The position numbers were made by a program, and so were the translations under genes. The notes under the pieces are model-generated. The model worked only from the letters and a program-made list of their open reading frames with translations, searched no databases and was not told the origin of the DNA. Shown piece after piece: positions 12,535 through 20,063 of a stretch of 64,000 bases of DNA (position 1 is its first letter; every line of letters starts with the position of its first letter). The stretch is taken from NCBI RefSeq assembly GCF_000427465.1, contig NZ_ATYB01000014.1, forward strand, positions 1,077,570 to 1,141,569, in the 5' to 3' direction. This DNA is from Sinorhizobium arboris LMG 14919. GTDB taxonomy: Bacteria > Pseudomonadota > Alphaproteobacteria > Rhizobiales > Rhizobiaceae.

Positions 12535-13221
12535 ATGAATGCGCGCGTGGCACTGCAGCTCTCCGGCATCGAGCGGCATTATGGCGAGGGCGACACGTTC
12601 CTGCCGATCCTCAAGGGAGCCGACCTGACGTTGCGAAGCGGTGAGACGGTCGCCCTCGTGGCGCCGTCCGGTACGGGAAAGTCGACATTGCTTCATATCG
12701 CCGGGCTGCTCGAACATCCGGATGAGGGCGAGGTGCTCGTGAACGGTACCTCCTGCAACGGGCTCAGCGACGACCGGCGCACGGCAATCCGCCGCAACGA
12801 GATCGGCTTCGTCTACCAGTTCCACCATCTCCTGCCGGAATTCTCGGCGCTGGAGAACATCATGATGCCGCAGCTGATCGCCGGACTGCCCAAGGCCGAA
12901 GCGGCGGAGCGGGCATCGGCCCTTCTGGACTATATGCGCATCGGCCACCGTGCCAGCCACCGCCCGGCCGAGCTTTCCGGCGGAGAGCAGCAGCGCGTCG
13001 CAATCGCCCGGGCGGTCGCCAATGCGCCGCTCATCCTCCTGGCGGACGAGCCGACCGGCAATCTCGATCCCGAGACGGCCGGCTATGTGTTCGAGGCGCT
13101 GGAAGCTCTGGCGCGCCAGTCGGGGCTCGCGGCGCTGATCGCCACCCACAATCACGAACTCGCTTCGCTGATGGATCGCCGCGTGACGATCGACGACGGC
13201 AGGGTGGTCGAACTGAGATAG
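12535..13221 (+). CDS. lolD: Lipoprotein-releasing system ATP-binding protein
   Basis: This 228-residue ABC ATPase powers the upstream LolC/E permease. Walker A is APSGTGKST (residues 43-51), the signature is LSGGEQQR (147-154), and Walker B ends LLADEP with E172 as likely catalytic base. Its position in the permease operon separates it from the similar FtsE and MacB ATPases. The stop TAG is the first part of an intergenic palindromic element (13222-13256). Confidence 0.94.
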
Positions 13222-13256: not shown

Positions 13257-13502
13257 TATTCGCATTTCCCGACGGAACCGCTCCGCGCCTTTCCTGGAAT
13301 GGCGCTGCTTCGTCCGCCGCAGCGCGCGATACAGCCTCGGCCTGAACCAGACCAGTGCTCACCGCACGGGCCTGCCATCCCGACATGTCGTTCGGCGGGC
13401 GCCGCCCGCCCGCAAAGCCTGCGCGATGTGCGGGGCCGTCGGGGCGCGCGTTAACCATAGCCAGTGAATAGCGGGTCTTCCATGCAGTCTTCCTTGACTA
13501 TC

Positions 13503-13528
13503 GAACAGAAATGGAACAAAAAGAGAAC
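13503..13528 (+). promoter_or_regulatory. Tandem SOS boxes (LexA operators)
   Basis: GAAC occurs at 13503, 13514 and 13525, each separated by exactly seven bases, giving two overlapping copies of GAAC-N7-GAAC, the known LexA operator of alphaproteobacteria. A -35-like TTGACT lies at 13494-13499, so LexA would cover the promoter. The start codon of the 28-residue membrane protein is 22 bases downstream. The same operator occurs in front of dinB (20049-20063). Confidence 0.8.
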
Positions 13529-13550
13529 AATAGCGGAAAGGAGACAAGTT

Positions 13551-13637
13551 ATGGCTGATTTCATACGTGATCTTGCTGCCTTCGCCTCGATGAGCCTTTT
13601 CATCGCGAGCATTTCTGTAATCGCTCTCGGCTTGTGA
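13551..13637 (+). CDS. SOS-controlled 28-residue single-span membrane protein
   Basis: A short frame starts at an ATG preceded by AAGGAG at 13538-13543, an almost ideal ribosome binding site, and ends with TGA at 13635. The product has a short polar N-terminus (MADFIRD) and then one hydrophobic span of about 21 residues (LAAFASMSLFIASISVIALGL). It is flanked by tandem LexA operators upstream and a terminator-like hairpin downstream, so it looks like an independent unit. The SOS-induced division inhibitor SidA of Caulobacter is a 29-residue inner-membrane protein. The resemblance here is in size, topology and control; homology is not claimed. Confidence 0.7.
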   Translation: MADFIRDLAAFASMSLFIASISVIALGL

Positions 13638-13655
13638 CCGACACTCAATCGACGT

Positions 13656-13700
13656 CCCCCGCGTCCTATGCATGTGCAGCAAGAAGCACCAACGCGGGGG
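13656..13700 (+). terminator. Terminator-like hairpin after the microprotein gene
   Basis: CCCCCGCGT (13656-13664) pairs perfectly with ACGCGGGGG (13692-13700). The loop is 27 bases and CAAAAACC follows, not a T-tract. It would separate the microprotein transcript from dnaE. The long loop and missing U-tract make factor-independent termination uncertain. Confidence 0.45.
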
Positions 13701-13789: not shown

Positions 13790-17284
<3,495 letters not shown>

Positions 17285-18750: not shown

Positions 18751-20043
18751 CTACCGGTCGCGTCGCCGCTGGCCGAAGGTATAGCCGGTCTCGACGCTCG
18801 TCTTGCCGAATTTGTCGCGCAGCCTGTTGACCGCGTCTTCGGCGGCGGCCCGCCGGGAGGCCAGCGGATCCACCAGATCGGGCGGGTCGGCGAGGTCGGG
18901 ATCGACCAGATCGCTGACGCCGATCCCGATCAGCCTGTATTTCGTCCCGTCGACCTCCTTCTCCAGCAGTTGCACGCCGGTGCGGAAGATGCGGTCGGCA
19001 AGGCGGGTGGGGCTTTCCAGCCGGCGGTTGCGCGTGCGGGTTTTGAAGTCCGCGGTCTTGAGCTTCAGCACCACCGTCTGTCCGGCGAGCGCGGATTTTC
19101 GCAAGCGGAACGCCACCTGTTCGCTAAGGCGCCTCAAATGCGCTACGAGATCCTCCTGACGCGTCAGGTCGTCGTTGAAGGTCGTCTCGGAGGAGACGCT
19201 CTTCGCTTCGCCTTCGATCTCCACGACTCTTTCGTCCAGGCCGCGCGAAAGCCTGTAGAGCCGCTGGCCCATCGTGCCGTAGCGGCGCATGAGGTCCGGC
19301 TCCTCCATCGTCTGGAGTTGCCCGATGGTGCGGATTCCGTCCCTTTCGAGCGTGCCGGCAAAAGTCTTGCCGACGCCCCAGATGAGCGTGACGGGCTTGT
19401 CTCTCAGAAAGTCCACGGCTTCAGCTTGGCCGATGATGGAGAAGCCGCGCGGCTTCTGAAGATCAGAGGCGACCTTGGCCAGGAATTTGCAATAGGACAG
19501 CCCAACGGAGACCGTGATGCCGATCTCCTTCTCCACCCGCTTGGCGAAGCGGGCAAGCGTCCGGGAGGGCGGATCGTGGTGGAGCCGTTCGGTGCCGCTC
19601 AGATCGAGAAAGGCCTCGTCGATCGACAGCGGCTGCACGAGTGGCGTCAACTCCAGCATCATCGCTCTGACCTCGCGGCCGACCCGCACATATTTCTCCA
19701 TGTCGGGCTTGATCACGACTGCCTGCGGGCACGCTTCGAGCGCCTTGAACATCGGCATTGCGGAGCGCACGCCATGAATGCGGGCTATATAGCAGGCCGT
19801 GGAGACAACGCCGCGCTTTCCGCCGCCGATGATGACCGGCTTGTCGGCGAGCTCCGGATTGTCGCGCTTTTCGACCGACGCATAGAAGGCATCGCAGTCG
19901 ATATGCGCCAGGGTCAACCGGTAGAGCTCGGAATGGCGAAGGAGCCGGGGACTGCCGCAGGAACGGCACCGCCTCGTCTGGACGGCTTGCTCCTCGAGGC
20001 AATCACGGCAGAAGCCGGAGGGTGGGACGGCGCTGTCGGTCAT
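18751..20043 (-). CDS. dinB: DNA polymerase IV with N-terminal zinc-ribbon-like extension
   Basis: This is a Y-family translesion polymerase. The catalytic core begins at about residue 43 with [13 protein letters not shown] (D49, D51) and has [12 protein letters not shown] little-finger domain is C-terminal. The first 40 residues carry two CxxC pairs (C12/C15, C26/C29), suggesting a small zinc-binding module absent from E. coli DinB. An SOS box at 20049-20063, only 6 bases from the ATG, predicts LexA control. No Shine-Dalgarno is evident between them, so translation may be leaderless or begin at another codon. Confidence 0.93.
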
Positions 20044-20048
20044 ATCCG

Positions 20049-20063
20049 GAACAAATGTTGAAC
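20049..20063 (-). promoter_or_regulatory. SOS box of dinB
   Basis: GAAC-N7-GAAC (plus strand: GAAC 20049-20052 and 20060-20063) lies directly before the dinB start codon. It matches the alphaproteobacterial LexA operator exactly. DinB is an expected SOS gene, so the site supports reading the tandem GAAC array at 13503-13528 the same way. Confidence 0.8.

Follow-up and report, generated by a model that had tools for sequence, protein, structure and literature searches.

The window, a 64,000-nucleotide stretch of Sinorhizobium arboris LMG 14919, carries dnaE (positions 13790 to 17284, plus strand), the gene for the replicative DNA polymerase III alpha subunit, which was identified from the ORF list and a profile scan. 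Upstream, on the same strand and beside a permease gene, is a lolD-like ABC transporter ATPase gene (12535 to 13221; PF00005). A Sinorhizobium meliloti record annotates the permease beside its lolD-like gene as lipoprotein-releasing. The stretch between the lolD-like gene and dnaE contains, all on the plus strand, a −35-like element, TTGAC (13494 to 13498), which ends 4 nt before the first of three GAAC words; two overlapping putative operators of the alphaproteobacterial LexA type (13503 to 13528); a ribosome-binding site (RBS), GGAAAGGAG (13536 to 13544); a 28-codon open reading frame (ORF), MADFIRDLAAFASMSLFIASISVIALGL, with its ATG at 13551 and its stop codon ending at 13637, predicted to encode a SidA-like single-span membrane protein; and a GC-rich hairpin in the ORF-dnaE spacer (13656 to 13700).

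To describe this arrangement in other genomes, we defined a unit, upstream of dnaE, as a perfect operator with an RBS and a hydrophobic ORF of 24 to 50 residues in the next 110 nt. The same-genus set consists of 30 loci read, of 32 same-genus matches, and includes the window's own genome. The named set holds the best 80 of 584 relatives, nearly all with Hyphomicrobiales labels, minus one truncated locus (L109), i.e., 79 loci. The class set, which also includes the window's own genome, has 78 loci, two (L212 and L229) having been dropped for too little upstream DNA. The Caulobacter-like set comprises the best 30 loci of 149 genomes found in a family whose two class-sample genomes exceed the cutoff for the holdfast protein HfaD. 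A lolD-like gene lies on the same strand upstream of dnaE in 29/30 same-genus, 61/79 named, and 17/30 Caulobacter-like loci and in 15 of the first 28 class loci analyzed.

The GAAC words begin at 13503, 13514, and 13525, in 11-bp steps, which confirms an earlier claim, made in the initial annotation of this DNA, that three GAAC words with 7-base gaps form two overlapping LexA-type operators. The enrichment of GAAC-N7-GAAC alone is modest, and taken singly the motif is weak evidence: the window has 6 copies versus 2.08 expected (2 of 100 shuffles reach 6), and the genome has 204 (110 + 94) versus 137 (78 + 59) for the reversed pattern. The triple GAAC is found twice genome-wide, here and at one other place that has no small membrane ORF behind it. 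One LexA protein exceeds the Pfam cutoff in this genome, and the stretch ahead of its gene holds a GAAC-N7-GAAC, GAACACATATGGAAC. In the same-genus units, the third operator word is GAAC in 19 of 30 and AAAC in 10, and the gap between TTGAC and the first GAAC is 4 nt in all 30. TTGAC is also found 3 to 6 nt ahead of the box in 51 of the 66 perfect-box units of the named set and 3 to 7 nt ahead in 16 of 18 class-set units, and ahead of the box in only 4 of 16 Caulobacter-like units. From the box to the ATG, the median distance is 55 nt among Caulobacter-like units and 48 nt in each of the other three sets. Judged from these sequence features, LexA control of the unit is very likely.

Further LexA-type sites were seen in the course of this comparison. 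At 15 loci (L121, L123, L124, L127, L129 to L131, and L135 to L142), mostly labeled Bradyrhizobium, Pseudolabrys, or Xanthobacteraceae, a GTTC-N7-GTTC whose start follows that of the GAAC box by 18 nt makes up a head-to-head double LexA-type operator with it. Within the window, GAACAAATGTTGAAC lies at 20049 to 20063, with 5 nt between it and the start of a gene for a DinB-like Y-family polymerase on the minus strand (18751 to 20043; PF00817), making this gene a second candidate LexA target. Four loci (L063, L064, L070, and L072) have a minus-strand gene of about 155 codons, absent in the window, between lolD and the SidA-like unit; the L063 copy, at about −991 to −526 from dnaE, matches DUF5680 (PF18931). 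A GAAC-N7-GAAC lies about 44 to 53 nt ahead of the start of this gene, which is possibly another SOS gene.

The RBS and the 28-codon frame for a single-span membrane protein that had been described at this locus are both present as proposed, and the best 17-residue Kyte-Doolittle mean of the one hydrophobic span is 2.16. The frame is open in the 5′ direction to a GTG at 13464 (57 codons). Three of the five database matches to the ORF are longer frames of 47 to 51 residues from Ensifer/Sinorhizobium that start 5′ of ATG 13551 and are labeled “hypothetical protein,” so annotation of the ORF is not absent everywhere. We prefer ATG 13551 as the start because the RBS precedes it, the conserved peptide starts there, and the whole open frame of many relatives has only 34 codons, which is too short for the upstream-extended starts. 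Four records labeled Sinorhizobium match the locus at about 85% identity, and none of them has an annotated feature there. When four family members were scanned, there was no NCBIfam match and a single subthreshold Pfam match for one member.

The locus was found in 32 of 33 same-genus genomes, the lone genome without it being 85% complete. Coding constraint and retention of the frame alongside the operators had been named as checks on the initial annotation, and both were found. Over 27 distinct same-genus versions of the frame, the pooled dN/dS is 0.092, and of the 28 columns at each codon position, 11, 2, and 22 are variable at positions 1, 2, and 3, respectively; in the other two reading frames, nonsynonymous change exceeds synonymous change. 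The frame is therefore under purifying selection, and the constraint acts on amino acids. Mean identity to the window over the same-genus loci (n = 30) is 0.84 for the boxes and 0.86 for the ORF versus 0.58 farther upstream, falls to 0.26 in the 60 nt past the stop codon, and is 0.74 in the remaining spacer toward dnaE. Operator and frame are conserved together across the dnaE loci; within the genus, the hairpin stretch is not conserved.

An sORF has been reported at this place in S. meliloti: sORF25, from a Ribo-seq set of translated sORFs, lies in the dnaE1 5′-UTR (PMC10117765). The lolD-dnaE spacer of S. meliloti Ak57 contains the unit, and because no frame of at least 20 codons there besides the 28-codon one has a GGAG-type RBS, sORF25 is, from its locus, almost certainly identical with this ORF. 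The Ak57 sequence used (CP090106.1, L299; 3.7 Mb) is labeled plasmid pSymB; it carries lolD-like genes and dnaE and looks chromosomal. LexA, SOS, and SidA have no occurrences in the main text of PMC10117765. Among the listed matches from the open-license literature on SidA or LexA in rhizobia, no title or beginning of an abstract claims a rhizobial SidA, and nothing on the dnaE-upstream locus was found in passages from work on Agrobacterium CcrM or on the small RNAs and start sites of S. meliloti.

The unit was present at dnaE in all 30 same-genus loci and, among the best 80 of 584 relatives, in 66 of the 79 named loci (72 when one operator mismatch was allowed). Among the 30 Caulobacter-like loci, 16 carried it (25 if one mismatch was tolerated); class-wide, it was present in 18 of 78 loci, 5 of these 18 coming from the window's own family or order. 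By hand tally, the class sample has the unit in 11 of the 66 families analyzed, besides the Caulobacter-like family; several of the class-wide peptides from outside the window's own family and order match in position, operator, and hydrophobicity only. The lack of a unit at dnaE does not prove that a genome is without it. Of the 12 missed loci in the named and Caulobacter-like sets, 9 retain the operator and the frame and fail the RBS or start codon rule, and the remaining 3 (L097, L099, and L100) have neither operator nor frame at dnaE. A peptide search of 297 Rhizobiaceae genomes gave matches in 142 at an E value of ≤1, a lead only, as the weak rows are possibly due to chance. When a 32-residue Bradyrhizobium-type peptide was searched in 385 class genomes, there was 1 match, which indicates that at such a distance a peptide search has too little power; we therefore used dnaE synteny instead.

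The modest enrichment of the single operator motif would be compatible with there being no gene at all, i.e., with GAAC words and a hydrophobic frame brought together by chance. However, the unit was found on none of 217 reverse strands of the dnaE upstream regions and in none of 4,340 dinucleotide shuffles of these regions. Elsewhere in the window, on either strand, there is no other combination of operator, RBS, and membrane ORF, and none of 30 other genomic GAAC-N7-GAAC sites (the first 30 of the 204) has such an ORF behind it. These controls, together with the selection on the frame, rule out a chance origin of the unit, and the Ribo-seq data published for an sORF at this position (PMC10117765) argue in the same direction. 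We consider the probability of a chance arrangement negligible and a real gene near certain.

The initial annotation had the unit self-contained and closed by a terminator-like hairpin before dnaE. There is indeed a 9-bp stem, formed by 13656 to 13664 with 13692 to 13700 (−22.7 kcal/mol; z = −2.3). Its loop is long and it lacks a T-run (a U-tract in the transcript), a terminator scan found nothing, and shuffled versions of the whole ORF-dnaE spacer fold as well as the spacer itself (z = −0.38). Given also the 26% identity after the stop codon, we rejected a terminator behind the ORF: the stem stands, the terminator signal does not, and the stretch is not conserved. A rule of our own marked terminator-like sites in 9 of the 72 spacers of the named set and in 1 of the 30 same-genus spacers; none of the 25 and 17 spacers of the other two sets had one. 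The position of sORF25, almost certainly this ORF, in the dnaE1 5′-UTR also speaks against a terminator-closed unit, since it implies read-through (PMC10117765).

A reading frame in a 5′-UTR could also be a leader peptide, or uORF, whose translation tunes the expression of dnaE. Such tuning is allowed for sORFs in 5′-UTRs by PMC10117765, which places sORF25 in one; in the same-genus and named sets, 54 to 537 nt separate the ORF from dnaE, and the dnaE-proximal part of the spacer is 74% identical within the genus. The spacer varies from −11 to 537 nt over all sets, however (−11 to 53 nt among the Caulobacter-like loci), the 60 nt behind the stop codon are unconserved, and selection acts on the amino acids. 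Nor is the linkage in cis constant. In three named genomes that lack the unit at dnaE, the ORF was found at another place (L293 to L295), with E values of 1.5 × 10−4 to 5.6 × 10−4 (per one genome). In Nitratireductor pacificus (L294) and a Mesorhizobium (L295), the ORF has a perfect operator, a lolD-like frame upstream, and no dnaE downstream; in a Chelativorans (L293), it lies beside an ssb-like frame and has an operator with one mismatch (the lolD-like and ssb-like labels at these three loci were assigned by eye). Relocated copies, two of them with a perfect operator, are less easily reconciled with a leader peptide than with an SOS gene that is independent of dnaE. We therefore disfavor a uORF of dnaE and regard it as quite improbable.

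A putative SOS gene upstream of dnaE invites comparison with sidA. Caulobacter SidA is a LexA-regulated inner membrane protein of 29 residues for which two-hybrid tests show contact with FtsW and FtsN (PMC4211646, PMC12700426). In Caulobacter crescentus, sidA is CCNA_02004 (PMC10769358), CCNA_02005 is a nucleoside hydrolase gene (PMC3667746), and dnaE is CC1926 (PMC1839093); from these two locus numberings, sidA and dnaE appear to be neighbors. All 30 Caulobacter-like loci (the best 30 of 149 genomes) have an ORF of 29 or 30 residues just 5′ of dnaE. Queried with its 40-codon frame, the ORF of one of them (L201) is identical to a database entry named cell division inhibitor SidA (P0008) and close to Caulobacter SidA entries (P0012, P0013, and P0017). 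NF033228, the SidA equivalog model with a curated 35-bit cutoff, recognizes each of the five SidA entries that were scanned. In Caulobacter-like genomes, the 29-residue protein that NCBI names SidA is thus encoded directly ahead of dnaE.

We compared sequence profiles built from hand-picked rows (19 rhizobial, 17 Caulobacter-like, and 13 Bradyrhizobium-type), with 200 column permutations that keep the hydrophobic pattern as controls. The rhizobial profile aligned with the SidA profile without gaps from residue 1 (probability, 92; score, 26.4), a score reached by none of the 200 permutations (maximum, 19.6). Majority residues common to both profiles are R6, D/E7, A10, S13, and F17. The rhizobial and Bradyrhizobium-type profiles scored 36.1 against each other (highest control, 17.5), and the window ORF scored 33.1 bits with the Bradyrhizobium-type HMM (0 of 3,000 shuffles). 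The match between the Bradyrhizobium-type and SidA profiles was weaker and less clear-cut, with a score of 19.8 that 3 of 200 controls reached, and in the HMM version of this comparison, 69 of 570 shuffles reached the observed value. On 19 distinct Caulobacter-like ORFs, the rhizobial HMM had a median of 15.8 bits, reached by none of 570 class-kept shuffles. The profile-profile comparison supports sequence homology of the ORF family with SidA.

In the opposite direction, the SidA HMM gave the window ORF 4.5 bits, which 350 of 3,000 shuffles reach and which is not significant. Its median scores on the other sets were low as well: 4.5 for same-genus ORFs (reached by 60 of 480 shuffles), 8.2 for other rhizobial ORFs (17 of 1,140), 5.4 for Bradyrhizobium-type ORFs (34 of 810), and 3.1 for the class sample (61 of 390). 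NF033228 did not report the window ORF, and it exceeded its cutoff in none of 61 Rhizobiaceae genomes and in 1 of 14 control genomes, presumably that of Caulobacter vibrioides. W19 and C22, which are invariant in the Caulobacter-like alignment, are absent from the rhizobial ORFs. Because the SidA HMM and NF033228 miss it, we call the ORF SidA-like: it is probably a positional ortholog, one that the present SidA model does not cover. The initial annotation had seen in it a LexA-controlled, single-span functional counterpart of SidA. This is well supported at the sequence level by the place upstream of dnaE, the operator type, the length, and the profile match; and since the ORF shares that place and operator type with sidA and has nearly its length, it is probably an ortholog of Caulobacter sidA, more than a functional counterpart.

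Our main reading, to which we give a probability of about 75%, is that the locus holds a LexA-repressed gene for a SidA-like inner membrane microprotein, a probable positional ortholog of sidA, that acts as a brake on division via FtsW/FtsI/FtsN. Bound to the two overlapping boxes, which lie downstream of the −35-like element and ahead of the ORF, LexA would hold the gene off. After DNA damage, RecA-driven cleavage of LexA would lead to a burst of the 28-residue single-span protein, which would insert into the inner membrane and, like SidA, keep the septal wall synthesis complex of FtsW, FtsI, and FtsN inactive until repair is finished. For the rhizobial ORF, LexA binding, induction by damage, membrane topology, the FtsW/FtsN target, and division arrest are all predictions, and we infer that arrest through FtsW/FtsI/FtsN is the best-supported mechanism. 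An operator and a membrane span do not by themselves name a target, and SOS peptides of other action exist, such as DinQ (PMC3567139) and TisB (PMC11575346). The product could therefore be an SOS-induced membrane peptide of the TisB/DinQ type, or one with another envelope target, that has the locus and descent of sidA and not its function, as the absence of SidA's W19 and C22 in rhizobia might suggest. In its locus, its type of operator, its length, and the gapless register of its N terminus, the ORF nevertheless agrees with SidA, and we consider another action unlikely.

If the unit works as proposed, Hyphomicrobiales and Caulobacter have one inherited checkpoint in common, and its gene has been missed by the curated SidA model and mostly missed by annotation. 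As the apparent rhizobial counterpart of sidA, the gene suggests that a damage checkpoint of the SidA type extends beyond what annotation shows. SOS division inhibitors are described as unrelated genes in different lineages (sulA, yneA, divS, chiZ, and sidA) (PMC4211646). At about even odds, the SidA checkpoint may be ancestral to much of the Alphaproteobacteria, with an old arrangement of lolD, LexA box, sidA, and dnaE in which the brake is physically tied to the polymerase gene, so that SOS induction both halts septation and reads into dnaE; the ORF would then be the so far unnamed SOS division inhibitor of rhizobia. The frequent linkage to dnaE raises the question of whether polymerase supply and the division block are induced together.

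Several known systems resemble the one proposed here. YneA and SosA are small damage-induced membrane proteins that block division, as we propose for the ORF, and belong to other families and loci. DidA is likewise a small, damage-induced membrane protein that blocks division (PMC4211646). It differs from the ORF in its 71 residues, its SOS-independent induction, its family, and its locus. In contrast to SidA, the window ORF is not recognized by NF033228 and is without W19 and C22, and the 54 to 537 nt that separate the same-genus and named ORFs from dnaE exceed the spacing in Caulobacter-like genomes. As in the case of SidA, the window ORF encodes a protein of nearly the same length (28 versus 29 residues) with one membrane span, has a putative LexA-type operator in its promoter, and lies upstream of dnaE, often after a lolD-like gene, and its family carries R6, D/E7, A10, S13, and F17 in a register counted from the start methionine.
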